A DNA stretch of 61,222 bases from contig JAHBZS010000026.1 in the NCBI GenBank assembly GCA_019635285.1, positions 1-61,222 on the forward strand, written 5' to 3'. A program made the translations under genes and the position numbers. The DNA comes from Rubrivivax sp. (GTDB lineage: Bacteria > Pseudomonadota > Gammaproteobacteria > Burkholderiales > Burkholderiaceae_C). Below, in pieces: positions 6,023 through 45,558 of this stretch. Below the pieces are notes generated by a model. That model saw only the letters and a list, made by a program, of their open reading frames with translations. It was not told the origin of the DNA and searched no databases. The first letter of the stretch is position 1; each line of letters begins with the position of its first letter.

Positions 6023-6036
6023 GGGGTGCGGCCGGC

Positions 6037-9138: not shown

Positions 9139-9148
9139 GGCTGCGCGC

Positions 9149-22292: not shown

Positions 22293-24347
22293 TCAGGCCA
22301 TCGCTTCGAGTTTGCGCGCCGTGGCCACCTCGACGGCATGGGCGACGAGGTGCAGCAACGCCTGCGGCGCGATCTCGGCGAGCAGCACGTCCTGGCAAGG
22401 CTCGCGCTCCTCGTCGTCCACGGTGAGCACCAGCTCGGGCACGCTGTCCACGCCGTGCACGGCGAAGACCTTCTGCACGATCTTGGAGTAGCGCAACGGG
22501 CCGCCGAAGGGCCAGCCCAGGCCGTCTTCGCCGCCCAGCAGCGGGTCGAAGTAGCGGCGCAGCGCCTGCTCGACCTGCTCCTTCACCTCGGCGGTGTCGG
22601 CGTCGTCGTCGGCCTGCACGGTGGCGCGCACGGCCAGCTTCACATAGCGCGGCGCGATGACGAACAGCTCCGTCGTGAGCAGCCGCCTGGCATCGAGCGC
22701 CTGGCAGACGCTGCGCAGCAGGCCGTCGCTGGGCAGCGGCGGCGGCGCGCCGAGGGCCGGCAGGCTGTCGTCACGTCGCGGTGGCACGACGATGACCGTC
22801 ACCGCGCCGGGCACCTTGACGCCCGGGAACTGCGGGTTCACCAGCGGCAGCGCCCGGGCGCGCTTCACGCCGCCGGCCAGACGGGCCAGCAGCTCGAAGT
22901 CGTCCACCGTGACGGCGCGCTCCCGCGCCCGCAGCGACAGCGCGGCGCGGCGCCGGGCAGCCTCCAGCGTCTCCTCGTCGGCGCCGCCGGCCGCGGCAAA
23001 TAGGTTGCTGGTGGCGCCGGCATCCAGCCCAGGTAGCGGCGTGAGCAGGTTGTTGATGGCCTGGGCCTTCACGTTGCCGACCGTGCCGCCGCCGAAGCGG
23101 TAGCGGCGCGCGATGACGTTGGCATCCGGATTGGCCGCGTTGGCCACCGGCACGGCGCCATGCTCGCCGTCACCCAGGCGCAGCTCGCCGTCGCCCCAGT
23201 TCACGACGAGATGCGTGTCGTGCCGGCCGGAGCCGAGCAGGTCGGGCATCACGGTCCAGGCCTGCCAGCCCTGGCCCTCGTCGATCTCGACCCGCGGTGG
23301 CTCGCCCGCCAGGTTCAGCACCGGCTTGTTCGCGAACGTGAAGCGCTGGCCCGGCTCGCCCGAGCTGCCGCCCAGCACCTCGTTTTCGACCGTCTGCGCC
23401 TGGATGGCCGGCACAGTGTTGATGCGCAGCGTCAGCAGGCGCGGCGCCACCTCGTACTGCGCGGTGACGGCCCGCCAGCGCAGCCAGAACAGGGCTGGCT
23501 GCGGCTCGCCGCTGTCGCGGTCGATAGCGTCGTAGTCGCCGACGTAGGCGCGCTTGAGCGCGGCATTGGCCGGCACGCGCAACACCGTGTGGCCGCTCTG
23601 CGCCAGGGCCAGCGTGTCGTCGGCCAGGCTGTCCAGCTGCACCCACAGCGAGCCGTTCCACCCCTCCCACACCAGCCGGGCGGAAGGCCAGGCCTGCGTG
23701 CCGCGGCCGTCGCAGCGGCGCACCAGCGGCTGCGTGGGGTCGGGCTGGGTCCACACCGCGACGTCCACCGAGACGGCGGGGAAGGCGTCCGCGCCGGTGT
23801 AGCTGTCGGGGAAGGCAAAGCCCAGCAGCAGGGCCGCGCCAGGCTGCGGCTCGGCGCCCAGTGCGTCGAAGCCGCCACGCGCGGCGGCGTTGAGTGCGCT
23901 GACGTTGCGGTACTGCGCGCCGTCGTCCACCTGCACCGCGCGCAGCTGTAGCGCCAGCGCGGTGAAGGCACGTTCCGTCTCGAAGACGATGGGCGGCCCG
24001 TCATCGCCCGGCGCTGACACCTGGGTGCCCTTGGGTACCGGCACCGTCGGCTCGGGATGGCCATCGGCCACGCCCAGGCTCACTTCCACGCGCGCCGGCA
24101 GTGCCGGCGTCAGCTCGATGCCGATCAGCTCCAGGAACTTGATGTAGAGCAGGTCGGGCACCCGCTGCATGCGGAACAGCAGCATCTCCGCCAGGTGGGC
24201 GAACACCTGGGTCAGCGTGATGCCGGGGTCGTTGTCGTTGAGGTCGGTCCACTCCGGCGTGTAGTGCGGGATGCGGGCACGGATCTCGTCGACGATGTCC
24301 TGCCAGCGGCGGGTGTCGATCTGCGGGGTCTGGTCCTTCAGTGACAT
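22293..24347 (-). CDS. Baseplate J/gp6-like protein (Afp11-like)
   Basis: A 684-aa baseplate wedge protein. The N-terminus (RIPHYTPEWTDLNDNDPGIT, then HLAEMLLFRMQRVPD) is the standard opening of 'putative baseplate assembly' proteins in contractile systems, and the C-terminal half (LRARERAVTVDDFELLARLA, then VTVIVVPP) matches the Baseplate_J domain. It would connect the spike hub to the outer baseplate. Its start overlaps the stop of the gp25 gene as TAATG, so the two are translationally coupled. Confidence 0.9.
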   Translation of the reverse strand: MSLKDQTPQIDTRRWQDIVDEIRARIPHYTPEWTDLNDNDPGITLTQVFAHLAEMLLFRMQRVPDLLYIKFLELIGIELTPALPARVEVSLGVADGHPEPTVPVPKGTQVSAPGDDGPPIVFETERAFTALALQLRAVQVDDGAQYRNVSALNAAARGGFDALGAEPQPGAALLLGFAFPDSYTGADAFPAVSVDVAVWTQPDPTQPLVRRCDGRGTQAWPSARLVWEGWNGSLWVQLDSLADDTLALAQSGHTVLRVPANAALKRAYVGDYDAIDRDSGEPQPALFWLRWRAVTAQYEVAPRLLTLRINTVPAIQAQTVENEVLGGSSGEPGQRFTFANKPVLNLAGEPPRVEIDEGQGWQAWTVMPDLLGSGRHDTHLVVNWGDGELRLGDGEHGAVPVANAANPDANVIARRYRFGGGTVGNVKAQAINNLLTPLPGLDAGATSNLFAAAGGADEETLEAARRRAALSLRARERAVTVDDFELLARLAGGVKRARALPLVNPQFPGVKVPGAVTVIVVPPRRDDSLPALGAPPPLPSDGLLRSVCQALDARRLLTTELFVIAPRYVKLAVRATVQADDDADTAEVKEQVEQALRRYFDPLLGGEDGLGWPFGGPLRYSKIVQKVFAVHGVDSVPELVLTVDDEEREPCQDVLLAEIAPQALLHLVAHAVEVATARKLEAMA

Positions 24348-24760
24348 TACCGGCTCTCGTGGATGTGGTACGGATAGACCAGGTTGCCGATCGCGTTGGT
24401 GGCGCGCACCCGGTAGTTCACGCGGATCAGCAGCAGGTTGGGTGACTCGGCGGGGTTGTCGACCTGCACGTCCAGCACGTCGATGCGGGCCTCGTGGTCC
24501 ACCAGGGCGCGCCGCACCTCGTGCGCGACCAGGCCCACCGTGCGCGAGTCGTTGGTGGCGAACACCAGATCGTGGATGCCGCAGCCCCAGTCCGGCTGCA
24601 TCACCCGCTCACCCTTGGCCGTGGCGAGGATGAGCACGATGGCCTCCTCCACGCGTTGCTCGTAGCGCGCCATCGCGAGGCCGCCGCGGGTGTTCACCTG
24701 CAGCGGAAACCGCCAGCCCTTGCCCAGGAACTCGCGATGCGGCGTGGGGGTGTCGGCCAT
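24347..24760 (-). CDS. gp25/GPW-type sheath initiator (Afp9-like)
   Basis: A 137-aa protein with the gp25 family sequence: GWRFPLQVNTRGGLAMA, then a helix (VEEAIVLILATAKGERV) and QPDWGCGIHDLVFA. This protein starts sheath polymerization on the baseplate. Start ATG at 24760; the open frame extends upstream only as shadow of the neighbouring gene. It is coupled to the baseplate J gene. Confidence 0.92.
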   Translation of the reverse strand: MADTPTPHREFLGKGWRFPLQVNTRGGLAMARYEQRVEEAIVLILATAKGERVMQPDWGCGIHDLVFATNDSRTVGLVAHEVRRALVDHEARIDVLDVQVDNPAESPNLLLIRVNYRVRATNAIGNLVYPYHIHESR

Positions 24761-24765
24761 GGCGT

Positions 24766-25944
24766 TCAGGTCCAGTTGAGGTCGGTCTTGCCACCGCCGC
24801 CGCTGGGCTGGTAGCGGATGCGTTCGGCTTCCAGGTCGCCGAGCACCAGCACGCGGCGGCCCGGGGCGGGCTGGATTTCGATGTCGCCCTGGGCGGTGAG
24901 GCGCACGCGCGCCAGCACCTGGCCGGCGGCGTTGCAATTCACGAGCTCGGCTTCGCGCGGACTCAGCGCCATGCGCAGGTAGCCGGCCGTCTGGCCGGCG
25001 CTGTCGCGCAGCCGCAGGCGCACCTCGCTGCAGTCGCTGGGACCCTCGGTGTCGAACTGCATGCCGAAGTGCTCCTTGCCCGCCATGCGCACGAAGCGCA
25101 GGTCGGTCGAAGGAGGACCCAGGCCGAGGTACACCACGCCCGCTCGCTGCACCAGCGCGAAGGCACGCAGCCGGTAGGCCGGGCCACCGGCATCCGTTGG
25201 CAGGTAGCGCGGCGCGTCGGCGCCGTCCTTCTGGCCCAGCGCGACCAGCTGGCCCTGCCAGCGCCGCGCGTCGCCGGGCTTGTGCTCCAGTGCCAGCGGC
25301 TCCAGCGGTGGCTCCAGGGTGGCCAGGGCCTCGGCGTCGGCTGCCGCGGCCTGCCAGCGCATCGCCTTCTCATGCCAGAACTGGCCGCCATCACGCTCCA
25401 CCAGCACGCCCAGCTTGACGATGGCGTCGCCTTTCGCTTCCTCGCCGTCGGGCAGCAGCAGCGGCGGCAGCGCGACGTCCACCGGCTTCTCGATCGGTGC
25501 CTGGGCACCGCCGCCCGGCCAGCGCAGCGCGGGGGCAGGCAGGGCCAGGCCGGCCAGGCGCACCAGGGCCACCGCGGGCGACGGCGGGCTCACCACGCGC
25601 GGCGTGGCCACGATCTTGGCGAAGTACTGGAAGCCGCCCTCATGGCTGAACTGCGGCTCGCCGTTGGCGTCGCGCAGCGCGGCGGGGTCCAGCGGCAGCG
25701 TCCAACGCGGGCCCGCGGCGGAGAGTGCCAGCCCTTCCACGGCGCTGCCCAGCGCCTCGTCGCCCACCGCGGCCTGCCACAGCCCGCGCGCCGGGTTCCA
25801 CTGCTGCTCGCCCGCGGCGCCGCTGCGGTAGAGGAAGGCCTGGGCCTGGGTGGCGCCGTCGGGTGCCTCGATGGAGACCGTGAGCGGGCGGTCGGTGCGC
25901 AGACCGTTGGCCAGCTTGGTGCCACTGATGACCGGCGCCTTCAC
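24766..25944 (-). CDS. Unknown eCIS protein in the spike-tip position
   Basis: A 392-aa protein I do not recognise. It starts with GTG at 25944, overlapping the spike gene stop by GTGA, so it is coupled to the spike. In Afp/PVC loci this position, between the VgrG-like spike and gp25, is held by the PAAR-like tip protein (Afp10), but I see no PAAR motif. The first 300 residues look like beta-sandwich domains; the last 60 (ARVRLTAQGDIEIQPAPGRR, then VLVLGDLEAERIRYQ) have the short regular strand pattern of a beta-helix or prism. It may be an alternative tip or a hub accessory (inference). Confidence 0.5.
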   Translation of the reverse strand: MKAPVISGTKLANGLRTDRPLTVSIEAPDGATQAQAFLYRSGAAGEQQWNPARGLWQAAVGDEALGSAVEGLALSAAGPRWTLPLDPAALRDANGEPQFSHEGGFQYFAKIVATPRVVSPPSPAVALVRLAGLALPAPALRWPGGGAQAPIEKPVDVALPPLLLPDGEEAKGDAIVKLGVLVERDGGQFWHEKAMRWQAAAADAEALATLEPPLEPLALEHKPGDARRWQGQLVALGQKDGADAPRYLPTDAGGPAYRLRAFALVQRAGVVYLGLGPPSTDLRFVRMAGKEHFGMQFDTEGPSDCSEVRLRLRDSAGQTAGYLRMALSPREAELVNCNAAGQVLARVRLTAQGDIEIQPAPGRRVLVLGDLEAERIRYQPSGGGGKTDLNWT

Positions 25945-26861
25945 AGCAGGTTCCCCGCGCCCGGCGTGTAGACGGGACTGACCACCGAACTGGTGATCAG
26001 CGCCGCGCTGCGCACGACGCCGTTGAAGTTGGCGATGCCGGCATTGACGTTCAGCGCGGTGCAGTTGAAGTTAAGCGCCGCGCCGGCCGTGATGTTGGCC
26101 GCGCCGCCGATGGTGATGTTGGCAGCGCCGCCCACCGTGATGCTGGCCGCGCCGCCCAGCGTGACCGTGGCTGCGCCACCGGCCGTGACGCTGAGTGCGC
26201 TGGTGGCGTTGACCGTTACGCCCGAGCTGCTGACGTCGATGGTGTTGCCGGCGCCGACGCTGATGGACAGCGACGGCTGCGGCGTGGCGTTCATCGTGAT
26301 GGTCACGCCCAGCGACGCGCCGGCGCGCAGCTCCACCTTGGTGCCCGCGGGGCTGTCGTCCATCGTGATTTTGTTGCTGCCCGAGACGATCTCGACCTTC
26401 CCGGTGCCGCTGTCATCCAGCAGCAGCTGGCGCTTGCCCGCGGTGGCCAGGCTGGCCTGGTGCTGGCCGGGCTTGTCCTCCAGCGTGAGCTGGTGCTTGG
26501 CGCTGGAGCGCAGGATGACGCGCTCGTCACCCTTCTTGTCCTCGAAGCGCAGCTGGTGGCCGCCGGGCGTGACGATGACGCGCTGGTGCGCCTCGGTCTC
26601 AGGCGAGACCTGCTCGCCGTTCCACAGGAAGCCCAGCACGAAGGGGTGGTCGAACTCGCCGTTATGGAAGGCCACCAGCACCTCGTCGCCGACCTCGGGC
26701 ATGAACAGCATGCCGCGCTTCTTGCCGGCCAGCGGCACCGCCACCGGCGCCCAAGGTGACAGCAGCCCCTCCTCGATGGCGCGGTACTCGACGATGACCC
26801 GACCCTGCTTGGCATCCACCTTGTTGACGAAGGCCGTGACCACGCCGTCGCGCCGCTTCAT
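25941..26861 (-). CDS. Spike protein, gp5/baseplate V-like (Afp8 C-terminal half)
   Basis: A 306-aa protein with an OB-fold at residues about 5-95 (VVTAFVNKVDAKQGRVIVEY, then PEVGDEVLVAFHNGEFDHPF, FVLGFLWNGE), as in gpV and VgrG. A triple-stranded beta-helix follows: from about 215 there are regular short repeats such as GGAASITV, GGAANITI, GGAANITA. It would form the piercing needle. No effector extension is present. Start ATG at 26861 overlaps the previous stop as ATGA. In Afp8 and VgrG this half is fused to the gp27-like half; here they are two genes. Confidence 0.88.
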   Translation of the reverse strand: MKRRDGVVTAFVNKVDAKQGRVIVEYRAIEEGLLSPWAPVAVPLAGKKRGMLFMPEVGDEVLVAFHNGEFDHPFVLGFLWNGEQVSPETEAHQRVIVTPGGHQLRFEDKKGDERVILRSSAKHQLTLEDKPGQHQASLATAGKRQLLLDDSGTGKVEIVSGSNKITMDDSPAGTKVELRAGASLGVTITMNATPQPSLSISVGAGNTIDVSSSGVTVNATSALSVTAGGAATVTLGGAASITVGGAANITIGGAANITAGAALNFNCTALNVNAGIANFNGVVRSAALITSSVVSPVYTPGAGNLL

Positions 26862-28090
26862 GCCAGACCTCCCGGCAGTGGCGCCTCGCGGCGCGCGGTG
26901 AACTTGGTGATGTAACCGGAGTCGTTGACGGTGTGCGTGCTCTTGGTGACGAAGTAGACGCCCGAGAAGCGCGCGCCCAGCCCCTTCACGTGCACCTGCT
27001 GGCCGGCGCGCAGGTCGGGCAGGCCTACGCAGGTGCCGGTGGCCTCCACCATGCCCTTGAGCTTCTCGCTGAGGATGGCGGCGGCGCGGCGGCGAGCCTG
27101 GGCGGGGTTGGCCATGGTCTCTTCGGCCACCACTTCCTCGCGGGGCCGGCAGCCGGGCACGTCCAGCAGCGCCACCAGGTCGCGGTTGACGTTGACCGAC
27201 GGGTCGTTGAGCTCGACCTTCTCCTTGATCGCCTTGTTGGTCTTGCGGTCCCAGGCTTTCACGGTGACCGACTTGACCTGGTTGGCGGTGGACAGCTTGG
27301 GGGTGAAGTCGATCAGCGAGATGCCCCACTCCAGCTCGTAGGTGGAGCGCGGCACGCCGGGATGACGCGCGTCGGACGGCGCGAATACCAGCACCTCGCG
27401 CACGTTGCGGCCCTGGCGCTCCAGGTCGATGTAGACGACGTACCCGATCTGGCGCGCCTGCAGCAGCAGGAAGTCGATGTCGTGCTGGTTGTCCTGCGCC
27501 AGGTAGTCCAGCACCGGTTCCTTGGCCATCGCCTCCTGCGAGATGCGGATGGGCAGCGGGAAGGTCTCGCCGTCGATGCGGCGCTGGCCGACGTCCTGCA
27601 CGATGCGGCTGATCTTCATCTGCGCCGCGCTGACGCGCTTGTTGGGCCAGTGGTCGCGTTGCTGCTTGCCGCGCAGCTTGTGCAGCGCGTTGAGCAGGCG
27701 CACGGTCAGCGTGGGCGGGCCGGCGGCAGGGAAGCTCGGCTCCAGCGACGTCGTCGAGCCCTTCACGATGGTGGCCAGCTCGCTGCCGTAGCCGAGCTTG
27801 AGCTCGAACTCCCCGACGCAGGGATTGAACAGGCGCTGCATGGGCGTGGCGCCTTGCACGCTGGTCTCGGCGCCGACGTACTTGAAGCTGCGCCGGGCCG
27901 GGTCGCTGTCCCAGTTGGCGAGGGTGACGTCGAAGCTGTCGATTTCGGTGATGGAGTCGTTGTAGACCACCTGCGTCACGTCGCGCAGTACGGCCGGGCC
28001 GAGGCCCGCACCGGCCGCGCTGATCTCGAAGCGCGGCACGTAGAACTCGCCATAGCGGCTGGAGGCGTCGACGACGGCAGTGGTGGTCAT
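26858..28090 (-). CDS. Baseplate hub protein, gp27/gpD-like (Afp8 N-terminal half)
   Basis: A 410-aa protein with the late control D/gp27 pattern: PRFEISAAGAGLGPAVLRDV at the N-terminus, EIDSFDVTLANWD, LKLGYGSELATIVKGSTTS, a middle segment with EPVLDYLAQDNQHDIDFLLL and a C-terminal QVHVKGLGARFSGVYFVTKS. It forms the trimeric hub between tube and spike. Start ATG at 28090 overlaps the LysM gene stop (TGATG) and its own stop overlaps the spike start (ATGA), giving a coupled trio. Confidence 0.88.
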   Translation of the reverse strand: MTTTAVVDASSRYGEFYVPRFEISAAGAGLGPAVLRDVTQVVYNDSITEIDSFDVTLANWDSDPARRSFKYVGAETSVQGATPMQRLFNPCVGEFELKLGYGSELATIVKGSTTSLEPSFPAAGPPTLTVRLLNALHKLRGKQQRDHWPNKRVSAAQMKISRIVQDVGQRRIDGETFPLPIRISQEAMAKEPVLDYLAQDNQHDIDFLLLQARQIGYVVYIDLERQGRNVREVLVFAPSDARHPGVPRSTYELEWGISLIDFTPKLSTANQVKSVTVKAWDRKTNKAIKEKVELNDPSVNVNRDLVALLDVPGCRPREEVVAEETMANPAQARRRAAAILSEKLKGMVEATGTCVGLPDLRAGQQVHVKGLGARFSGVYFVTKSTHTVNDSGYITKFTARREAPLPGGLA

Positions 28091-28920
28091 CAGCGCAACC
28101 TCGGCACGCGCAGGAAGGTCCCGGGCACCAGGCGCCGCGGGTCGTGGATGGCGTTGGCGTCGGCGATCTCGCGCCACTCGGTGACGGACTCCCAGTAGGC
28201 ATGGGCCACGCGGGGCAGGTCGTCGTCGCGGCTGAGCACGTGCACGTGGGTGCGGTCGGGCGAGTTCAGTCCCAGTTCCTTGAGCTGGGTCTCCAGGTCG
28301 CGGTACTCGCGCAGCGTCACCGTGAGCGTGGCGCGCAGCGGCATGCCCTCGGGCGAGAACAGCGTGAACTTCTGCTTGATGCTCTCCAGCACGCAGCGGA
28401 AGCTCGTGCGGCGCTGGTTCTGCACCGCCGCACCCGCCGCGCTCATCGCAGTCGCGGCGGCGCTGCCCAGGGCGCCGGCGGCGCCGGCCAGGGCGCTCGC
28501 GCCCAGCTCCTGCACGGAGCGCGCCGCACGCGCCGCCTTGGCCGCCTTGAGCGTCGGCGGGCCGCCGACCTGGCTGCCCGGAAAACCCTTCTCGCCCCAG
28601 ATGAACTCCAGCACCGGCGGCGCATGCCGCTTGGGCTCGATCTTGATGAGCTGGTAGATCTTGTCGGTCTCGTGCGCCACGCTGTGGGCGCCGACGCCCA
28701 TGCCCTGGTCGGTGGTGTCGAAGAACAGGTCCAGCGTGAGCTTCTCGGCCTGGCCGCGCACGAACTGCTGCAGCGGGGCGTCCAGGCCGGGGATCTGCAC
28801 CTCGGCGATCTGGGCCTGCTTGTCCAGCGTGTACTCGCTGGGGTTGTACTGGACGGGGATGTTCTCCTCCGGCTTGCCCTGCCACTTGACCTTGATGACG
28901 GCGAGGTTGAGCTGCGTCAT
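28090..28920 (-). CDS. LysM baseplate protein (Afp7/gp53-like)
   Basis: A 276-aa protein. The N-terminal part (VQYNPSEYTLDKQAQIAE, then DLFFDTTDQG, then PPVLEFIWGE) is the conserved CIS tube-initiator/hub-collar sequence. The C-terminal 50 residues are a LysM repeat (HVLSRDDDLPRVAHAYWES, then DPRRLVPGTFLRVP). An Ala-rich linker (about 125-165) lies between them. In Afp/PVC this protein sits on the hub and starts the inner tube. Start ATG at 28920; the open frame extends upstream only as shadow. Coupled to both neighbours. Confidence 0.88.
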   Translation of the reverse strand: MTQLNLAVIKVKWQGKPEENIPVQYNPSEYTLDKQAQIAEVQIPGLDAPLQQFVRGQAEKLTLDLFFDTTDQGMGVGAHSVAHETDKIYQLIKIEPKRHAPPVLEFIWGEKGFPGSQVGGPPTLKAAKAARAARSVQELGASALAGAAGALGSAAATAMSAAGAAVQNQRRTSFRCVLESIKQKFTLFSPEGMPLRATLTVTLREYRDLETQLKELGLNSPDRTHVHVLSRDDDLPRVAHAYWESVTEWREIADANAIHDPRRLVPGTFLRVPRLR

Positions 28921-29129
28921 GGCCGGCCTCCCGCGCGGCCGTGGCAGCCGCAGTCGCCGCCGCCGACCTGGGTGTCGCGGCGGCGCGCCTCCTCGTCCTG
29001 CTGCTGCGCGCGCTGCGCGGCCAGCACGGCGGTGACGATGCGCGTCAGCACGGCCGGCGTGAGCAGGGAGTCGCCGTCCATCACCTGGGTCTGGGCCACC
29101 ACGTCGCGGATGTGTACCTGGGCTGTCAT
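28917..29129 (-). CDS. Small eCIS protein between tube and LysM genes
   Basis: A 70-aa protein. The first 20 residues (VHIRDVVAQTQVMDGDS) form a strand-rich lead, and the remainder is a charged helix ending in GGGDCGCHGRAGG. Small proteins of similar size and lead occupy the same slot in other eCIS loci (DUF5908-like); I am not sure of membership. The start lies 2 bp after the tube gene stop and its stop overlaps the LysM start (ATGA), which supports translation. Confidence 0.6.
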   Translation of the reverse strand: MTAQVHIRDVVAQTQVMDGDSLLTPAVLTRIVTAVLAAQRAQQQDEEARRRDTQVGGGDCGCHGRAGGRP

Positions 29130-29131
29130 GG

Positions 29132-29722
29132 TCAGAGAGTGATGGAGGCACCGACCGCGCCGGCGATGCTGCCGATCGCGCCGGTGAAGGGGATCTGGAA
29201 CACGCCCTCGTGGGCGAACTCGATGGCCTCGATGGCCACCTGGTTCTGCGTCGCGTTCAGCGGCGGGGCGGTGTACTTGACTGGCAGCGCGCGGGTGAAC
29301 ATCCAGGCCGCGGCGGGCAGGTGGCGCGAGTCCAGCAGCACGATGACGCCGTCGCGGCGGTGGCCGCGACCGGTGACGAAGCCGTAGTGCCAGTCCCACA
29401 GCGCCGTGTTGCTGGCCAGGCCGCGCTTGAGGGTGATATTGCTCCACTCCACCCGCGAGGCGAAGCGGCGCATGCCGCCGTTGTCGCCGCCTTCCTTGAC
29501 GTCCTCGGTCTTCATCGTCATCTCCAGGCCGCTGCATTCGCTGAATCCGCCCAGCGCGACGTCGAAGATCGCCGACATGCCGATGGACAGCGCCGCGTCC
29601 AGGCCGCTGGTGGTGTCGACGAGGCTGACGAGGAAGTTGTGGTTGAGCAGCGGGTCGGAGCGCAGCAAGTCGGCCGCGCCGGAGGCACCGGCGGCACGAA
29701 GGAGGTCGGGCAGCAGGGCCAT
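29132..29722 (-). CDS. Inner tube protein 2 (gp19-like, Afp5-like)
   Basis: A 196-aa tail tube protein. It has the gp19/T4-like tube core: NHNFLVSLVDT at the start, a GGFSECSGLEMTMKTEDVKE strand pair, WSNITLKRGLASNTALWDWH, and AIEAIEFAHEGVF near the end. Compared with the 146-aa tube gene upstream it has a 25-residue N-terminal extension (LLPDLLRAAGASGAADLLRS) and a Gly/Ala-rich tail. In Afp-type particles such a variant sits at the baseplate end of the tube. It overlaps the second sheath gene (TGATG). Confidence 0.88.
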   Translation of the reverse strand: MALLPDLLRAAGASGAADLLRSDPLLNHNFLVSLVDTTSGLDAALSIGMSAIFDVALGGFSECSGLEMTMKTEDVKEGGDNGGMRRFASRVEWSNITLKRGLASNTALWDWHYGFVTGRGHRRDGVIVLLDSRHLPAAAWMFTRALPVKYTAPPLNATQNQVAIEAIEFAHEGVFQIPFTGAIGSIAGAVGASITL

Positions 29723-31749
29723 CAGGCGGCTCCCGCCTCGGCGATGGCGAAGCCGCCGGCGTCGCGCCCGATGCGCAGCACGATGAACTCCATCGGCACG
29801 ACCGGCGCCAGGCCCACGTCGATCAGCAACTGGCCAAGGTCACGGCTGGGCGACGGGTTGTTGGTCTCGTCGCAGCGCACGTAGAAGGCCTCCTCCGCCA
29901 CCGCGCCCTGCAGCGCGCCGCGTACCCACAGGCTGCGCAGGAAGGAGCCGATGGCCAGCTGCAGCTTCATGCGCGTGCGCCAGTCGTTGGGCTCGAACAC
30001 GGCCCACTGGATCGCGATCTCGATGGCGCGCGCCACCATGGACATCAGCCGGCGCACGTTGACGAAGCGCCAGTCGGGGTCGGAGGACAGCGTGCGCGCG
30101 CCCAGCAGGCGCAGGCCGCGGCCCGGCACGGCGCGCACGAGGTTGACGTGCAGGTCGTTCAGCACGCCGTGGCGCTCGTCGTCGAAGGCCAGGGCCACGT
30201 CCTGCAGCCATTGCAGCGGCTGGTTGGCGGCGCTGGCATGCACACCCAGCCGCAGGTCGGTGGCGGCCATGATGCCGGCGATGTGGCCGCAGGGTGGCAC
30301 GGCCCGCACCAAGGATCGGCGCGCACCGCGGCGCGGGTCGACGACCTTCAGCCACGGCGCGTGCAGCGCGGCAAAGGCGCTGTCGAAGCGGCTGCGCCAG
30401 GCCCGCAGCCCGCTGGCCGACAAGCCGAGCTGCGAGACCGAAGACCAGGGCGCGTCGAGCAGCGCGAAGCGGTCGCGCCGGTGCTCGCAGTGCGCCACCA
30501 GTGCCGCCTGCACGCGCAGGATGGCGGCCTCTCCGAACTCGGGCGGCCGGTCGCCTATGGCAGGCGGCGGCGCGGGCGGGGCCAGCGGCGGCGCGGGAAG
30601 GCAGGCGTCGGGTGTGCAGGCAGGCGGCAGCAGCTGCGGCAGGGGGTCGGGGCGGATGTGTATGTCGGGCACGGCGACCAGGGCGACATCGTCGACCGGG
30701 TCCAGCGCCGCAATGCCGCGCCGGGCCGCGGAGGCGAGGTCAGGCGCGGCGGCCGGGTCGAAGGCTTCGCCGATGAAGTCGCGCACGTCCAGCGCCGCCA
30801 GGCCGTCGGCACCGCCCCGCAGCGCCAGGAGGCCGCCCGGTGCCGCGCCGGCCACCGCCACCAGGGGCAGCAGCGTGGCCCGGCGCGGCGCATCGCGCAG
30901 TTCGCGGATCACGACGGGCGGCGGCGCGTCCGGCAGGCGGTTGCGGGCGATGCGCAGGTGCTCCAGCGCGCGGTCGGCGTCGGGGATGCGGGCATCCGGC
31001 TGGTCGGGGTGCTGCACGTCGACCTGCCACCAGGGCTGCTTGAGCAGCCGCGGGCCGTAGCGCTCGTGCTGCGGCACCAGCGACAGGCCGTCCACCACGC
31101 GCACCAGCCGCCCGGCTTCGCGCACCTCGAGGTCATACGCCAGCGTCTCGACGCGCACGCTCAATCCGCCGCCGGCCGGCAGCGCCGGCTGCAGGGGCTG
31201 GGCCAGCACCAGGGCGCCCGCTTCCGCATCAACCGCCGCGATGATGGCGCGCGCACGGTCGGCGCCGCGGATGACCTCCACCAGGTCGAAGCGACTGAAG
31301 CCGTCGGGCTGGGGCAGCAGCAGGCGCAATGGGTCGGTGGCATCCAGCCGCGCGCGGCTGCGTTGGCGCCTCACCTCGGCCACGCGGACCTGCAGCCGGT
31401 TGCCCCAAACGCCGGCGCTGGCCGCCTCGACGCGCCAGGCGGCACCCGCGGCGTCGGCCAGCACCACCGACGCGGCGCTGGCCGCGGGTGAGGCCACGCG
31501 CACCACCCACAGCCGGCGCCCGCCGTTTTCGAAGAAACCGCGTGCCGCGTAGGCAAGGTAGCCGTTGTCGAAGACGTCGCCGAACCAGGCGATGAATTGC
31601 CGGGTCGATTCCACGGGCACCGCCAGGTGCAGCGGCCCGCGCTCGGCCAGACCGACGAAGGCCGCCACGTCGGTGCGCAGCGGCGCCACGCCGCCGGCGT
31701 TGGCGTCGTGCACCTCGTGGTGCACGCCTGGTGTGGAGTAGACACGCAT
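29722..31749 (-). CDS. Contractile sheath protein 2
   Basis: A 675-aa sheath subunit. N-terminus VYSTPGVHHEVHDANAG, followed by TDVAAFVGLAERGP, is the typical sheath opening. The C-terminal domain is strongly conserved with the first sheath: NVRRLMSMVARAIEIAIQWA, VFEPND, LWVRGALQGA and a final FIVLRIG strand. The middle domain is variable and contains a Pro-rich loop (near residue 385, APPLAPPAPPP). Two sheath types usually mean one main sheath and one baseplate-proximal or minor sheath; this one is paired with the second tube gene. Confidence 0.9.
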   Translation of the reverse strand: MRVYSTPGVHHEVHDANAGGVAPLRTDVAAFVGLAERGPLHLAVPVESTRQFIAWFGDVFDNGYLAYAARGFFENGGRRLWVVRVASPAASAASVVLADAAGAAWRVEAASAGVWGNRLQVRVAEVRRQRSRARLDATDPLRLLLPQPDGFSRFDLVEVIRGADRARAIIAAVDAEAGALVLAQPLQPALPAGGGLSVRVETLAYDLEVREAGRLVRVVDGLSLVPQHERYGPRLLKQPWWQVDVQHPDQPDARIPDADRALEHLRIARNRLPDAPPPVVIRELRDAPRRATLLPLVAVAGAAPGGLLALRGGADGLAALDVRDFIGEAFDPAAAPDLASAARRGIAALDPVDDVALVAVPDIHIRPDPLPQLLPPACTPDACLPAPPLAPPAPPPAIGDRPPEFGEAAILRVQAALVAHCEHRRDRFALLDAPWSSVSQLGLSASGLRAWRSRFDSAFAALHAPWLKVVDPRRGARRSLVRAVPPCGHIAGIMAATDLRLGVHASAANQPLQWLQDVALAFDDERHGVLNDLHVNLVRAVPGRGLRLLGARTLSSDPDWRFVNVRRLMSMVARAIEIAIQWAVFEPNDWRTRMKLQLAIGSFLRSLWVRGALQGAVAEEAFYVRCDETNNPSPSRDLGQLLIDVGLAPVVPMEFIVLRIGRDAGGFAIAEAGAA

Positions 31750-31768: not shown

Positions 31769-32209
31769 CTACATCTCCAGCTCGACGCCTTCGTGCGTGA
31801 GCTCCACCGACTCCATCGCGACCTCGTTGCCGCTGGCCTTCAGCGCCGGGCCCTCGATCTTGCTGATCCAGGCGCTCTCGGCGTGCCAGCGCAGCACCGC
31901 CTCGCGGCGCTCGTTGAGCAGCACGATGGTGACGTTGCGGCGGTCGGCGGTGCCGTTCAGGATGTTCTTCCACCAGGCCCAGAGGGTCTTGTCCTGGGTG
32001 ATGCCGCGTTTGAGCGTGATGGCCACCGGCTTGCTCAGCGCGGGCAGCTTGCGCACGCTGTTCTGCAGGTCGGTGCCTTCGCGATAGTCGGTGGCGTCGG
32101 TCTGCATCGTGAGGCCGCCGGCTTCGGAGAAGCCGGCGCGCGCGATGCCGTCGATCTCGACGACGAAGTTGAAGCCGCGGTAGGGGTCGTTGCGTTGGTC
32201 GGTGGCCAT
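31769..32209 (-). CDS. Inner tube protein 1 (gp19-like, Afp1-like)
   Basis: A 146-aa protein with the standard CIS tube sequence: YRGFNFVVEIDGIARAGFSE, GTDLQNSVRKLPALSKPVAI, TLKRGITQDKTLWAWW and VELTHEGVELEM. Length and motifs fit the main tube protein of Afp/PVC particles. ATG at 32209 follows GAGGAGCAAGCC, a strong ribosome-binding site, as expected for a high-copy structural protein. Confidence 0.93.
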   Translation of the reverse strand: MATDQRNDPYRGFNFVVEIDGIARAGFSEAGGLTMQTDATDYREGTDLQNSVRKLPALSKPVAITLKRGITQDKTLWAWWKNILNGTADRRNVTIVLLNERREAVLRWHAESAWISKIEGPALKASGNEVAMESVELTHEGVELEM

Positions 32210-32225: not shown

Positions 32226-35200
32226 TCACTCGTCGGCGTGGGCCGTCCACAGGCCGATGCGGACGATGACGTACTCGGCCGGCTTGACCGGCGCCACGCC
32301 CACCAGGCAGATCAGGCGGCCCTGGTCGATGTCGGTCTGCGTCATGGTCGTGCGGTCGCACTTGACGAAGAAGGCCTCTTCGACCTTGGTGCCCTCCAGT
32401 GCGCCGTTGCGCCAGACCAGGGTCAGGAAGTTGGTGATCGAACGGCGCACGCGCGCCCACAGCGGCTCGGCGTTGGGCTCGAAGACCACCCACTGCAGCC
32501 CGCGGTCGACCGAGGCCTCGATGAAGATCAGGAGCCGCCGCACGTTGACGTACTTCCAGTCGCTGTCGCTGGTGATGCAGCGCCCGCCGTAGATGCGGAT
32601 GCCACGGTTCACCGGCCGGAAGTCGCGGATCACGTTGATGTTGACCGGGTAGGGGTTGAGGATGTCGTGCTGTTCCTTGTTCAGCACGCGCTGCAGCCCG
32701 ATGACGCCGCGTACCACCTCGTTCGCCGGCGCCTTGTGCACGCCGCGTTCGATATCGGTGCGGGCATAGATGCCGGCCATGTGGCCCGAGGGCGGGATGG
32801 GGTAGTCGGGGGGCGGGCCTTGCACGTCGGGGTAGGGGTCGGGCACCAGCAGCCAGGGGTGGTAGAGCGCGGCGTACTTGGTGTCGTAGCGTTGGCGCTG
32901 CAGCTGGATCTCTGTCATGGAGTCGTGCGGAGGCGGGGCGCCGTCCAGCACCGCGAAGCGGTAGCGGCGCTGCTCGCAGTGGTTGATGAGGGCGTTCTGG
33001 ACCTTCGCAGTGGTGACGCCCGGGATCGCGACGATGCTGATCTCCTCGATGTTGTCCAGCGTGTAGAGGCCGGTGCGAAGCTCGGGGTTGGGGTCGGGCT
33101 GGCCGATGTAGGTGTCATCGCCGATGCCAGCGATGACGTCGTTGCCGCCGCCCAGCGGCAACAGCAGCAGGCGCGGCACACCGCCTGGCGGCGTGATGCG
33201 GGTGAACACCGCGCCGGGCCGCAGCGCCTGCGTGGGCGCCAGATCCAGCACGCGCACATGGCGCGATTCGCCTTCGCTGCGGCGGTCGCCGCGGCGCAGC
33301 GCGCGTCCGCCGTCGTCGGTGGTGGTGGCGTTGCTGGCTATGTTCCAGGTGGCGCCGATGACGCTTTGGAAGTAGCGCGAGTGCCGCGGGTCCAGCGACA
33401 GGGCGGCGAACACCTCGCGGTCGATGGCGTTGCCGTTGCGCGAGGGGTTGGCGGGGTCGGGCTGGCGCAGCAGCTCCACGACGAAGCGGTGCTCCTGCGA
33501 GCGCACCGTGGTGCCCACCACCACGCCGGCGGGCAGGGCGCCGCCGTCCAGCTCGACCAGCGAGTCGTCGTCGCGGTCGATGGAGCGCACCTTGGCGCGG
33601 TTGGGCGCGGCCACCCCGAACACGAGCTCGGTGCCGGCCTCGAGGCCCGCGGCCGAGTCCAGGCGCAGCCGGCCGCCCAGCAGTACCTGGCGCACACGGG
33701 TGGACAGCAGGGGCTCGTCCTGGGGTTCCATGCCCACGCGCAGGCGATTGCCCCAGCGCCCGGCGTCCAGCGCGCGCACCAGCACCATGGGCCTGCGCCG
33801 AGCCACGGTCGCACCGGCCACCTGGGCGTTGACGAGAGGGTTGACCAGCGGCACCACCATCGGCGCCAGCGCCACCGGCGCGCCGATGGCATGGAAGTAG
33901 GCGCCGCCGCTGGCCGGCCGCACGCGCAGCACGTCGGCGGCGGCGTAGCCGGCATCGGCGACCACCAGCGTCGGGGCACCGGGTGCCACGGGCAGCACGA
34001 CCGTCGACTGCAGCGTGGCCGGGCCCGGCATGGCGAAGCTGTCCACCGGCGTGGCGGGCACGGCGAGGTGGTTGTTGCGCAGCGGCGCGCGCAGCACGAT
34101 GTTGCCGGCGTCCGGCGGCGCGGTCGGGCTGGGCAGGTCGAGGATCTCGACAAACTCGCGCAAGGGACCGACGCCAATGCGCAGCAGCTGTCCCGCCACC
34201 ATGCTCTCGCGCCTGTCGACGCGGATCACCGTGGCGCCTGCGGCCGCATCGGTGCTCAGCTGCGTGGCGCGCACCACGCCGCCCAGCCCGGGCAGGCGCT
34301 CGACCACGCTGCCGGCAGCGAACTCGGCCGAGGCCGGCTGCTCCAGCGGCAGCCGGGTGAGTGCGCCCACGCGGCGGTATTCGACCTGCGGCGAGGCCGC
34401 GGCGTCGAAGCGCAGCACGCTGCCCGCCGGCACGGCCAGCGCCGCCGCGAAATGCACGGCACTGGCGCCGGCGGTGACGGCGGAGCCCGAGGCCACCGGG
34501 CCGACGATGGGGCCCGGCAAGGTCTGCCGCCGCACCGCCACACCGCTGGCATGGGCATGCCGCAACGGCGCGTTCAGCGGGATGCGGTTGGCGACGATGG
34601 GCCCGGCCACCACGGCCAGGTCCTCGTCATTGCCGGTGGTGCCCACGCGCAGCAGGTCGCCCACCGCGAGCGCGGGGTTGAACACGCTCGGGTTGACGAT
34701 CAGGCCGTCGGCCCCGGCCGCGACGGCGAAGGCCAGCGTGGTGCCATGGTCGGCCGCAGGCGCGCCGTCGACGATGGGCACCGAGGAGGCACCGGCCGTG
34801 TGGTCGAACACCAGCGGGGCGCGCAGGCCGTGCATCACGGCAGCGGCGATGGGCGGGATGGGGTTGATCGCCTGGAAGTCGGCGTTGATGCCGTCGCCGA
34901 TCTGCAGCGTGTCGGGCGCGGCCAGGCCGGGATTGGCGTCGATGACGATGCTGCCGGCGCCCGGTGCGGCGGCCGTGATCAACTGGGCCTGTGGCGGCGC
35001 GGCGGGGTCGGGAGCGACGAGCTGGCGGTTGGCCGCCAGCGCCTGGTCGATCTCGAGCACGCGGGTAATGAACACGCGCTTGCCGCCATTGGTGAAGAAG
35101 CCGTCCACCGCATGCGGCAGGAAGCAGTGCGTGCCATACAGCAGCGGATCCAGGGACTGGCCGAACCAGCGCTGGTACTCGCCGGCGCTGGTGACAAGGA

Positions 35201-35330
35201 TGGGCACGTTGACCGGCCCGCGTTCGGCGACGCCGACGAAGCCCGTCGTGCTGGTGGAGACCCCTTCGATCGGCTTGGAGCCGGTGTCGACTTCTTCCAC
35301 GTATACCGCGGGGGCCAGGTATTCAGGCAT
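32226..35330 (-). CDS. Contractile sheath protein 1 (large)
   Basis: A 1034-aa sheath protein, much longer than the 350-500 aa of common CIS sheaths. ATG at 35330 follows AAGGAG; 48 further in-frame codons upstream are rejected. The N-terminus (YLAPAVYVEEVDTGSKPIEG, then TTGFVGVAERGP) and C-terminus (GRCITSDSDWKYVNVRRL, VFEPNAEPLWARVR, NGALEGTKVEEAFF) are conserved sheath. The extra roughly 400 residues lie between about 110 and 600 and are made of repeated beta-domains (VLRVRPASGGAYF, LRIGVGPLREFVEI, LLRVGTTGNDEDLAV). These would decorate the outer surface of the particle. Paired with tube protein 1. Confidence 0.92.
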   Translation of the reverse strand: MPEYLAPAVYVEEVDTGSKPIEGVSTSTTGFVGVAERGPVNVPILVTSAGEYQRWFGQSLDPLLYGTHCFLPHAVDGFFTNGGKRVFITRVLEIDQALAANRQLVAPDPAAPPQAQLITAAAPGAGSIVIDANPGLAAPDTLQIGDGINADFQAINPIPPIAAAVMHGLRAPLVFDHTAGASSVPIVDGAPAADHGTTLAFAVAAGADGLIVNPSVFNPALAVGDLLRVGTTGNDEDLAVVAGPIVANRIPLNAPLRHAHASGVAVRRQTLPGPIVGPVASGSAVTAGASAVHFAAALAVPAGSVLRFDAAASPQVEYRRVGALTRLPLEQPASAEFAAGSVVERLPGLGGVVRATQLSTDAAAGATVIRVDRRESMVAGQLLRIGVGPLREFVEILDLPSPTAPPDAGNIVLRAPLRNNHLAVPATPVDSFAMPGPATLQSTVVLPVAPGAPTLVVADAGYAAADVLRVRPASGGAYFHAIGAPVALAPMVVPLVNPLVNAQVAGATVARRRPMVLVRALDAGRWGNRLRVGMEPQDEPLLSTRVRQVLLGGRLRLDSAAGLEAGTELVFGVAAPNRAKVRSIDRDDDSLVELDGGALPAGVVVGTTVRSQEHRFVVELLRQPDPANPSRNGNAIDREVFAALSLDPRHSRYFQSVIGATWNIASNATTTDDGGRALRRGDRRSEGESRHVRVLDLAPTQALRPGAVFTRITPPGGVPRLLLLPLGGGNDVIAGIGDDTYIGQPDPNPELRTGLYTLDNIEEISIVAIPGVTTAKVQNALINHCEQRRYRFAVLDGAPPPHDSMTEIQLQRQRYDTKYAALYHPWLLVPDPYPDVQGPPPDYPIPPSGHMAGIYARTDIERGVHKAPANEVVRGVIGLQRVLNKEQHDILNPYPVNINVIRDFRPVNRGIRIYGGRCITSDSDWKYVNVRRLLIFIEASVDRGLQWVVFEPNAEPLWARVRRSITNFLTLVWRNGALEGTKVEEAFFVKCDRTTMTQTDIDQGRLICLVGVAPVKPAEYVIVRIGLWTAHADE

Positions 35331-35347
35331 GGGGTTCTCCTTGAGAC

Positions 35348-36820
35348 TCAGGGAACGAGGATGGAAAGCGGGTTGGCGCTCTCGTAGGTCAGGGCGAAGC
35401 GGCGTGGTGCGATGGACAGGCCGGCGTGCATCACCGCGATCTCGATCTGCGCCACGCGGGCAAGCAGCGGCCACTCGAAGCGGCCGTCGGCATCAGCAAC
35501 CACGGCATGCGTGATCACGAACTGGTTCACCGCCGGCGGCGGCAGCGCCACCGCGCGTGGCAGCTGCGTGAAGCGGTGGTAGGACGCGCGCGGCGTGCCA
35601 TGGGCGACCGCCAGGCGCCCGCTGGCGCCCAGCGCGCCGAGGTTGGTGGCGAACAGCACCGGGTCGCCGGCCTGGGCTTCGCGGCTGATGCCGCCCGCGG
35701 CGACGAGGCCGCCGGCCGTCACGGCCTGCACCGTCGTACCGGCGCGGTGCAGACAGGCGCTTGGATGGGCCAGGCGCACGCGCGCCGGGGCCAGCGGGTC
35801 GGCGGGTGGCGTGAAGCCCAGGGTCATGACCCATTCGCATTCGGCGCTGGCGTCGGCCTCCAGTTGCAGCAGGTCGCCGCCGACCGGGTTCAGCAGCGTG
35901 TGCGGCTGCACCCACAGCGCGTCGCTGCCCGCCGGGGCGGGCTGCGTGAGCCGCCGCGCCACGCCTACGGGCGCCAGCGTGCAACCCTGCACGGCGACGC
36001 CGGGGCCATGGGCCAGCGGCAGCGGCGGCGACAGGGCGCAGAAGTCCACCGGCAGCGAGGCGCCGCCGATGGTGGACGGGTAGGTGGGCCAGTAACCAAG
36101 GATGCCCAGCTGGGCTCCGGCGGCGGGCACCAGGGCCGGCGGTGGGCCGGGCAGGCGCTGCTGCACCTGGCCGCGCAGGCGCAGTGTGGCGGCGCGGTGC
36201 AGGGGCTGGTCGGCCAGTTGCATGGGCACGCCGGCCACCCGCGCGCCCGCCGGCCGCGCGGCGCTCAGCGGCGGCACGATGGGCACCTCGCTGGCGGCCG
36301 CGGGCAGCGTGGCCGCGACGAGCGAGGTCTGCTCGGCCGGGTCGGCCGCGGTGCGCTCGATCACCACGCCGCGGCCAGGGCGGAACTGCGCGCGCACGTC
36401 GCCCGCCGCGGGAAGCGGGTCGGGCGGTGCCACTTGCAGCGGGTTGGTGTTGGTGGGCGAGAACAGCGGGAGGCTGCGCCGCGCGGCGTCGATGGCGGGT
36501 GTGAGGTCGCACGGCAGGTAGCCGGCGGCCTCGATGCGCGCGCCGAACAGGCCGGTGCGTGTGAGCGCCACGGCGGCGTCGTCGATGCGCGCGACCAGGC
36601 CGCACAGGCCGCCTTCGGCGGCGCGAGGCGTCATGCGGGCCACCAGCGGCGAATCCGCAGGCAGGGCCACCACGCGCACCGGCACGTGCGGCGGCTGGCC
36701 GGTGAGCTCGTCAACGGCCCGCGTGCGCAGCACGGCCCATTGCCATAGCCTCGGGGCCAGCGGGTCCTCGTCGGCGATCACCTGGGCCCGGCTGTCGAGC
36801 ATGACGGTTCGGCGCGGCAC
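35348..36820 (-). CDS. Unknown eCIS protein, beta-rich
   Basis: A 490-aa protein I do not recognise. The GTG at 36820 has GGGGAG nine bases upstream and is the preferred start; the next ATG is at 36802. It reads as several beta-domains: an N-terminal segment (RVVALPADSPLVARMTPRAA, GLFGARIEAAGYLPCDLTP), two middle segments with PLHRAATLRLRGQVQQRLPG, and a C-terminal part that ends with EIAVMHAGLSIAPRRFALTY. The central 'RLRG.V' phrasing is reminiscent of carboxypeptidase-like surface domains. It lies between the cap and sheath genes and might contribute to the cap or sheath surface (inference from position). Confidence 0.5.
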   Translation of the reverse strand: MPRRTVMLDSRAQVIADEDPLAPRLWQWAVLRTRAVDELTGQPPHVPVRVVALPADSPLVARMTPRAAEGGLCGLVARIDDAAVALTRTGLFGARIEAAGYLPCDLTPAIDAARRSLPLFSPTNTNPLQVAPPDPLPAAGDVRAQFRPGRGVVIERTAADPAEQTSLVAATLPAAASEVPIVPPLSAARPAGARVAGVPMQLADQPLHRAATLRLRGQVQQRLPGPPPALVPAAGAQLGILGYWPTYPSTIGGASLPVDFCALSPPLPLAHGPGVAVQGCTLAPVGVARRLTQPAPAGSDALWVQPHTLLNPVGGDLLQLEADASAECEWVMTLGFTPPADPLAPARVRLAHPSACLHRAGTTVQAVTAGGLVAAGGISREAQAGDPVLFATNLGALGASGRLAVAHGTPRASYHRFTQLPRAVALPPPAVNQFVITHAVVADADGRFEWPLLARVAQIEIAVMHAGLSIAPRRFALTYESANPLSILVP

Positions 36821-36825
36821 GGGGC

Positions 36826-37440
36826 TCAGCTCCCCACCATCAGGCCGTAGTCGGCGTGGCCCGACTCCACGAGCGCATTGCGCTCGGCTTCGGCGATGGA
36901 ATCGATGTTGGCCAGCGTCACCTCGTAGGAAACGCTGAGCTGGTAGGAGCCTTCGAGCGCCTCCCAGACCCGGGCGATCTCGTCGAGCGCCAACGCCTCC
37001 AGCCGCACGCGCACCTGCAAGTCGGTTCCGGCGAGGTCGCCGCGCAGCATGGCGCCAGCCAGCTCGGGCTGCGAATGCAGCAGCTGAAGCACGCGGCCCA
37101 GCACGCGCTGTTCCGTGTCGGGGTTGTTGTCGCTCAGGGGCGTCATCAGGTAGTGCAGCCGCAGCGGCAGCGGCGGCGGCAGCAATTCGACGAGACCGCC
37201 GCGACGTGGCCGCACGATGGGGGCGTCGTTGAGCCGTGTCTCGTCGCGCACCACCCGGTACAGCCACACCGACAGACCTTGCAGGCTCTGCTGGGCCATC
37301 TCCTGCGGGGTGTGCAGCGAGGTGACCATCGGCCCGCCGGAGAAGAAGCCGGCCAGGCCGCCGGGGCCCACGTCGGCCAGCATGCCCGCGTGCAGGAAGC
37401 TGCGCAGCGTCTCGCTGATCGAGGCCAGGCGCGTGTACAT
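36826..37440 (-). CDS. DUF4255/Pvc16-family cap (tail terminator) protein
   Basis: A 204-aa protein. Typical features of Pvc16/Afp16-type proteins are visible: an N-terminal helix (ISETLRSFLHAGM), SLQGLSVWLYRVVRDETRLN, then PLPLRLHYLMTPL and TEQRVLGRVLQLLHSQPELA, and a C-terminal YQLSVSYEVTLANIDS strand. The family ends the inner tube and sheath at the top of the particle. Being near the start of the operon is common in this subtype. ATG at 37440 with GAGG upstream, 9 bp after the small first gene. Confidence 0.9.
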   Translation of the reverse strand: MYTRLASISETLRSFLHAGMLADVGPGGLAGFFSGGPMVTSLHTPQEMAQQSLQGLSVWLYRVVRDETRLNDAPIVRPRRGGLVELLPPPLPLRLHYLMTPLSDNNPDTEQRVLGRVLQLLHSQPELAGAMLRGDLAGTDLQVRVRLEALALDEIARVWEALEGSYQLSVSYEVTLANIDSIAEAERNALVESGHADYGLMVGS

Positions 37441-37449
37441 CCGCAGCCC

Positions 37450-37731
37450 TCAGCGGCGCACGACGCCGTTCAGCGCCAGCCCGACGCGCCCGACGAGATC
37501 CCCCTCGCCGTCGGCCCGCGCATAGCTCACGCGGCCATCGCCCGCCAAGGCGCGTTTCATGAAGCCGTGTTCCACCATCCAGTCCAGCGCATTCAGCACA
37601 TCGATCTCACTCGGGGCATCGGTCGGAGGGAACCACCAGAGGCTGATGCCCTGCGCGCGGTCGCACGCCCTCGGGTGGTCCTGCAGATAGCGGGCCAACG
37701 ACATGACGGTGTGCTGCAGTTCGGGAGGCAA
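37450..37731 (-). CDS. Small first gene of the eCIS operon, possible winged-helix protein
   Basis: A 93-aa protein, first in the operon and only about 25 nt from the predicted sigma-54 start site. The start is TTG at 37731 (a stop codon lies six codons upstream in frame); the next candidate is ATG at 37704. Residues about 40-75 (SEIDVLNALDWMVEHGFMKR) followed by a beta-hairpin-like RVSYARADG look like a winged-helix fold. It could regulate or cap; I have no firm identity for it. No strong ribosome-binding site is seen. Confidence 0.5.
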   Translation of the reverse strand: MPPELQHTVMSLARYLQDHPRACDRAQGISLWWFPPTDAPSEIDVLNALDWMVEHGFMKRALAGDGRVSYARADGEGDLVGRVGLALNGVVRR

Positions 37732-37765
37732 CGCCGTATGTCCATGTCATCGCTGCCCGAAGAAT

Positions 37766-37781
37766 TGCAAGCGCGATGCCA
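37766..37781 (-). promoter_or_regulatory. Sigma-54 promoter of the eCIS operon
   Basis: On the minus strand the sequence reads TGGCATCGCGCTTGCA. It matches the -24/-12 consensus (TGGCAcg-N4-TTGCA) with the GG and GC pairs at the required spacing of 10 intervening bases. Transcription would start near 37754, 23 bases before the first codon of the operon at 37731. Confidence 0.75.
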
Positions 37782-37845
37782 GCCCGTGACAGCGTGCTAA
37801 GTCACTGAATTTGCAAGGGGTTCTCTAAGTCGCGGGATGCCGCCG

Positions 37846-37859
37846 GGACAAATTCGTCC
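37846..37859. promoter_or_regulatory. Candidate upstream activator site, proximal copy
   Basis: GGACAAATTCGTCC, a near palindrome (GGAC...GTCC around AATT). Its centre lies about 98 bp upstream of the predicted sigma-54 start site, a normal distance for an enhancer-binding protein. The same GGACAA....GTCC pattern recurs 49 bp further away. Confidence 0.55.
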
Positions 37860-37894
37860 TCCTTGAAGTTGCGGCTATGGCGCAGACAGGAGTG

Positions 37895-37908
37895 GGACAA
37901 GGATGTCC
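37895..37908. promoter_or_regulatory. Candidate upstream activator site, distal copy
   Basis: GGACAAGGATGTCC, an inverted repeat (GGACA/TGTCC). Its centre is about 147 bp upstream of the predicted start site. Together with the copy at 37846-37859 it forms a pair that a Fis-type helix-turn-helix dimer could occupy. Confidence 0.55.
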
Positions 37909-38373: not shown

Positions 38374-41199
<2,826 letters not shown>

Positions 41200-45526: not shown

Positions 45527-45558
45527 AACGGCTTAGGTGTGAGAGCACCTAAGCCGTT
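45527..45558 (+). terminator. Strong terminator between tRNA-Arg and integrase
   Basis: A perfect 13-bp stem (AACGGCTTAGGTG / CACCTAAGCCGTT) with a 6-nt loop, followed on the plus strand by TGTTCTT. The integrase stop codon (45549-45551) lies inside the right arm, so the hairpin can end transcription from both directions. Confidence 0.75.

Follow-up and report, generated by a model that had tools for sequence, protein, structure and literature searches.

The extracellular contractile injection system (eCIS) operon of this Rubrivivax sp., which runs for about 35 kb on the minus strand from 37731 to 2768, raises the question of how the genes of an entire injection particle are switched on. The initial annotation had proposed that one dedicated sigma-54 activator controls all of them, and we looked at the promoter region, the activator gene and their relatives in other genomes for what bears on this proposal. 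Here the window means the whole stretch of 61,222 nucleotides that was analysed.

The eCIS operon and its surroundings

Sheath, tube, spike, baseplate, AAA+ ATPase, DUF4255 and eCIS_core (DUF4157) genes were recognised through Pfam in one cluster, which marks it as an eCIS locus. All operon genes are on the minus strand, and the first, here called g1 (37450..37731), starts with TTG and encodes a conserved HPxAxDTxxGIxRWW protein of 93 aa. It is followed by a Pvc16/DUF4255 gene (36826..37440; PF14065, 8.2e-37), an open frame with the first sheath gene (32226..35474; sheath domains PF17482 and PF04984), a tail tube gene (31769..32209; PF06841, 9.4e-42), a second sheath gene (29722..31749; PF17482, 2.5e-15), a second tube gene (29132..29722; PF06841, 2.1e-33), a CIS tube protein gene (28090..29151; PF19266, 4e-34), a spike/baseplate V gene (25941..28202; PF04717, 1e-20) and the gp25 and baseplate J genes (22293..24937; PF04965 and PF04865). 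Further downstream are a tape-measure gene (11272..12711; PF19268, 1.5e-6), an AAA+ ATPase with a winged-helix domain (9149..11275; PF00004, 2e-27 and PF22977, 5.1e-20) and two eCIS_core genes (6037..9630; PF13699, 9.4e-26 and 2768..6022; PF13699, 3.2e-25). The products of these last two are putative cargo of more than 1000 aa each, with no Pfam domain besides eCIS_core at E 0.001. The gene at 2768..6022 is the last of the operon and is convergent with the activator gene.

Genes of tyrosine recombinases (phage integrase family) flank the locus at 632-1327 (+), adjoining the activator gene, and at 45549-46754 (-). Some 640 bp upstream of g1 the same strand has a PEP carboxylase gene, and between that gene and the eCIS promoter, at 38040-38320, there are by eye apparently two diverged copies of GTGATTTC...CGCTGC..., perhaps a decayed repeat. 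Neither a sigma-70 promoter nor a terminator was found by consensus in 37440-38400.

Predicted promoter and candidate operators upstream of g1

The -24/-12 element that the initial annotation had placed before the first gene was recovered as a predicted sigma-54 promoter on the minus strand (37781-37766), 34 bp upstream of the TTG start of g1 at 37731. Its sequence TGGCATCGCGCTTGCA differs from TGGCACNNNNNTTGCW by one mismatch and has the features expected of a sigma-54 promoter, namely GG at -24 and GC at -12 with ten bases between them in a TGGCAC-N5-TTGC-like arrangement; counted from the -12 GC, transcription is predicted to start at about 37755. The window has no other match with at most one mismatch, against a chance expectation of 2.36, and the score of the element was reached in 13 of 200 shuffles of the 673-bp stretch around it, so that the window's site taken alone lies within chance. 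Across the 4.9-Mb genome, in which rpoN is present, TGGCAC-N5-TTGC occurs at 19 places against 2 for the reversed pattern.

Upstream of the promoter stand two GGACA-type inverted repeats, also noticed in the initial annotation, which we locate at 37846..37859 and 37895..37908 with centres at about -97 and -146. The proximal palindrome GGACAAATTCGTCC has one mismatch to GGACA-N4-TGTCC and the distal one GGACAAGGATGTCC matches it exactly. The exact form is expected 0.03 times per window and occurs once in the whole genome; the one-mismatch form occurs at 35 genome places including the exact one, and only the window's two lie within 1 kb of each other, no further such pair that could mark a second target of the activator being found genome-wide. 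When two mismatches are allowed, the window shows no excess of the pattern (16 occurrences vs 24 expected). On the evidence of the window alone, these counts make the palindromes striking and the promoter plausible. The palindromes are candidate operators with the traits of upstream activating sequences, that is, dyads roughly 80-200 bp upstream that are often paired and are conserved along with an activator, and the available excerpt of PMC7057263 places the binding of sigma-54 activators at approximately 100-150 bp upstream.

The activator and its relatives

The gene for a sigma-54 activator, placed by the initial annotation at the far end of the locus, was indeed found there (1736..2764, plus strand, TTG start), ending four bases from the end of the last operon gene. 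Its product combines a Sigma54_activat AAA+ domain (3e-63), with Walker motifs visible by eye, and a C-terminal Fis-type HTH (HTH_8, 7.2e-6), the make-up of a bacterial enhancer-binding protein; no N-terminal sensor domain or any other domain beyond these two was found in it. For an activator with no recognisable sensor domain, control must lie in its amount or in a partner protein. PspF and HrpR/HrpS likewise consist of AAA+ and HTH with no cis-regulatory domain, and activators of this kind are controlled in trans, by PspA or HrpV, according to the excerpted text of PMC7057263. Unlike PspF, the eCIS activator sits with an eCIS operon and stays below the PspF family cut-off (257.5 bits vs 443.55 for TIGR02974). 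The loop that faces sigma-54 reads GAFTSA in the window's activator and not GAFTGA. Of the 31 eCIS activators listed, 30 differ from GA[FY]TGA at the fifth residue, the exception being the acidobacterial one (GAYTGA). GAFTDA, GAFTHA and GAYTDA are among the variants that would keep activity in the list given in the available part of PMC4641369, from which GAFTSA is absent.

The search for relatives of the activator covered 81 genomes from the genus and 399 from the family and yielded 51 stretches for comparison. When adjacent stretches of one contig were counted together, a homologue was present in 43 sequences (42 fetched loci and the window) and eCIS genes in 31 of these 43. In 28 of the 31 the activator is followed on its own strand by a front gene (g1, Pvc16 or sheath), within 750 bp in 22, and the three exceptions are the window, G077 and G414. 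When the genome collection was also scanned with a sheath alignment, the best 80 among 581 loci included seven with an activator homologue, one of them of another type (Solimonas, L139), and nine with g1 (L124, L125, L127, L129, L155, L188, L195, L170 and L175), where it has to be kept in mind that for the other 71 sheath loci the 10-kb flank would hide a far-end activator and the g1 motif could miss diverged copies. The activator of L139 (Solimonas soli; 6028-6921), a different sigma-54 activator near the sheath with 40% identity, another HTH and a canonical GAFTGA loop, was not counted.

The set of 37 eCIS loci compared below comprised the window and genomes from the activator search (30 loci together) and seven that came via the sheath (L124, L125, L127, L129, L155, L188 and L195). 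Left out were L170 and L175, as duplicates of G337 and G212, L148, where the motif match was spurious, and G096, which has a promoter score of 15 and no GGACA site with at most one mismatch. The 37 loci span an acidobacterium, a low-GC Thiodiazotropha, a Lysobacteraceae strain and two alphaproteobacteria. The acidobacterial locus (L124), the closest sheath relative among the matches listed (66% identity), has the module with an exact GGACATTTTTGTCC site, and its presence in an acidobacterium suggests horizontal transfer.

The distance between activator and promoter in the window is shared by other loci. In Cupriavidus sp. amp6, Tistlia consotensis and Erythrobacter ani, the three of the nine g1 loci from the sheath scan that have no activator nearby, the same contig has the activator gene at the opposite end, convergent with the operon and 33-34 kb from g1, and in G077 it is at the far end on the same strand; the idea that the far-end position is a peculiarity of the window was dropped on these grounds. 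In these five loci, the window included, 31-35 kb separate the activator from g1, and g1 has a sigma-54 site in each of the five and operators in four, the exception being Cupriavidus.

A sigma-54 site is conserved before g1. Taking the best score from 350 bp upstream of g1 to 16 bp inside the gene, 36 of the 37 loci reached at least 14 of 17 and 32 at least 15 (window included), the sole locus below 14 being G077 with 13; since every region is represented by its highest-scoring site, these figures are inflated towards conservation, and since 30 of the loci are the window and genomes reached via the activator, the linkage in them is not independent. As background, 2801 tiles of 500 bp from 29 such loci, scored on both strands, gave at least 14 in 359, at least 15 in 42 and at least 16 in none. 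Downstream of activator-like genes with no eCIS front gene nearby, a score of at least 14 was found in 5 of 14 stretches vs 27 of 29 eCIS stretches, and targets of other sigma-54 activators next door may be the reason for those five.

The palindromes were compared with the recognition helix of the activator in two groups, one with an RRAFFEL-type helix and its variants (group A, 16 loci) and one with a GKERxxFGKL-like helix, TERRHLGR in Tistlia and Erythrobacter (group B, 21 loci). GGACA-N4-TGTCC was present in group A with at most one mismatch in 12 of 16 loci and with at most two in all 16, four of them having only two-mismatch palindromes, and GGGTC-N6-GACCC was present in none. In group B, GGGTC-N6-GACCC was found with at most one mismatch in 17 of 21 loci, four having no GGGTC site, and GGACA with at most one mismatch in none, GGACA-like sites at two mismatches occurring in three. 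Fisher p values for GGACA and GGGTC were 9.8e-7 and 5.9e-7, and 7.1e-5 and 1.1e-5 after near-identical loci had been merged to 13 and 16; the grouping was not blind, as the palindromes had been noticed first and the groups were set by helix afterwards. Control tiles of 260 bp, drawn from the family and genus loci and the window with the true regions included, contained GGACA sites in 20 of 3663 and GGGTC sites in 51 of 3663. Judged by sequence, the type of operator goes with the activator's recognition helix.

The two groups also differ in the sigma-54 loop, which reads GA[FY]TDA in the 17 group B activators listed and has S, H, T or A at that position in group A. In a tree of the AAA+ domain built with the HTH removed (12 group A and 17 group B rows), one branch separates them with support of 92/89, which falls short of the 95/80 mark of the tool, and this single branch probably reflects one divergence and not repeated switches. 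Two or more sites with at most two mismatches occur in 10 of the 16 group A loci, and the symmetrised consensus of 26 group A sites is GGACAAATTTGTCC. A fixed helical phase between paired sites was considered and rejected, the spacings ranging from 49 to 86 bp in nine loci.

Autoregulation of the activator was likewise set aside, as the 450 bp upstream of the activator match contained a GGACA site with at most one mismatch in 0 of 28 loci, a sigma-54 score of at least 15 in 0 of 28 and a one-mismatch GGGTC site in 1 of 28; a one-mismatch GGACA site does stand upstream of the activator gene of Tistlia, which does not belong to the 28. The operators, as far as motif searches tell, accompany the promoter and not the activator gene. 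These comparisons strengthen the idea of a dedicated activator put forward in the initial annotation, and the activator family is tied to eCIS loci. The annotation had named absence of the repeats from related loci as evidence against its reading, and the repeats are present in relatives with a similar activator.

A box for IHF was a weak match in the initial annotation and is so here, and its placement had to be revised. The segment first suggested (AACCCCTTG) is not the best candidate, and ATTCAGTGACTTA (37798..37810, minus strand), with two mismatches to WATCAANNNNTTR, stands at the position of better boxes in some relatives. Within 90 bp upstream of the promoter, WATCAANNNNTTR with at most one mismatch was found in 12 of 32 loci, where letter shuffles give an expectation of 0.45, with no such box in the other 20; all 12 are on the same strand, at a distance of 28-30 bases upstream of where the promoter starts. 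A CAAG-N2-CTTG dyad is present in most of these boxes, which may thus be bound by another protein than IHF. Both ihfA and ihfB are in the genome, IhfA and IhfB having been recognised by eye among translated matches.

Competing readings and the proposed switch

We hold it to be very probable that the eCIS operon is driven by one sigma-54 promoter and by its own activator acting on the two GGACA palindromes. A chance origin of the matches would be conceivable in a GC-rich genome in which 2.36 sigma-54-like matches with at most one mismatch are expected per window, and it was set aside with next to no probability left to it on the conservation across loci, as related loci from several bacterial groups, an acidobacterium among them, have the same elements at the corresponding position. 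It is also quite improbable that the operon owes its expression to read-through of PEP carboxylase transcripts, or to a sigma-70 promoter that escaped recognition, and that the sigma-54 site has decayed. Such read-through would be helped by the common strand, the distance of some 640 bp and the lack of a detected terminator between the two genes; yet in most relatives it is the activator and not PEP carboxylase that precedes the promoter and the promoter is kept, no sigma-70 consensus match was found, and the window itself retains the promoter and both palindromes.

A rival that weighs somewhat more, though it is still unlikely, accepts the sigma-54 promoter and has the palindromes bound by another protein, most likely g1 as an autoregulator, the activator binding elsewhere or acting from solution. 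The alignment of g1 comprises 34 sequences of an uncharacterised protein that accompanies the activator and the sigma-54 site. Conservation ties g1 to the module, and through its linkage to the same promoters the operator type would track g1 too; some copies are weakly winged-helix-like in their second half, with a best Pfam match of 3e-5 (FUR) in 1 of the 34 members. The profile of g1 against solved structures gave at best 0.0002 (ribosomal protein eS25), with metal-uptake (Fur-type) and other regulators at 0.06 and above, and the window's own copy matched no Pfam family even at E 0.5. Against a role of g1 at the palindromes also speak their location, about where sigma-54 activators bind, their frequent pairing and the agreement of their type with the recognition helix of the activator.

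Under the favoured reading, in which the activator itself occupies the palindromes, RNA polymerase with sigma-54 would be held as a closed complex at the single promoter 37766-37781, from which the operon from 37731 to 2768 would be transcribed. The product of 1736-2764 would bind the palindromes at about -97 and -146 and form a ring, bending of the DNA, for which IHF at the box immediately before -24 may be responsible, would carry it to the promoter, and its ATP hydrolysis would open the complex. Control would be exerted through the amount of activator or through a partner protein. That g1 is this partner is a guess from their co-occurrence. A wider proposal, which we regard as doubtful though worth stating, is that a sigma-54 activator with no sensor, the operators that match it, in many cases an IHF box, and the small g1 form a self-contained module that defines an eCIS sub-class across phyla; here g1 would be the trans-acting partner of the activator, an anti-activator or feedback reader by analogy with PspA for PspF or HrpV for HrpS, and the specificities of activator and operator would have changed together (GGACA vs GGGTC).

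Regulator genes tied to eCIS operons have been described from other protein families. GerE/LuxR-type, BTAD and RfaH proteins are named as eCIS regulators, with GerE adjoining 25.8% of loci, in the available portion of Geller et al. 2021 (PMC8213781), and the terms 'sigma' and 'ntrc' have 0 occurrences in the main text of that paper. By term counts 'sigma', 'rpoN' and 'ntrC' are absent from the accessible text of a 2023 review (PMC10598620) and of a 2026 review, and the former states in its accessible text that some eCIS loci have no conserved regulatory genes and calls their regulation unclear. Among the matches listed in the open-licence literature (titles and starts of abstracts) there was no report of sigma-54 control of eCIS; a Geobacter transcriptome paper names both phage-tail-like genes and a sigma-54 regulator with no link between them in the part available, and one paper with 'contractile injection' and 'rpoN' applies the term, in its excerpt, to T6SS. 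The T6SS, another contractile injection machine, is likewise switched on by RpoN and a cluster-encoded activator, Sfa2, according to the excerpt of PMC5813230 on the H2-T6SS. Sigma-54 enhancer control is a known mode of regulation, including that of type VI secretion, and what appears to be new here is its probable dedication to eCIS. VasH is a further sigma-54 activator of type VI secretion. Set beside Sfa2 and VasH by description, the eCIS activator differs in consisting of AAA+ and HTH only, in its link to eCIS loci and in having its own operators.

The reciprocal difference in operators between the two activator groups makes them well suited to working out how sigma-54 activators recognise DNA. 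With a single promoter, a pair of defined 14-bp operators and one activator, the switch can be tested directly, and the supply of activator would be the obvious handle for the study of such particles in the laboratory.
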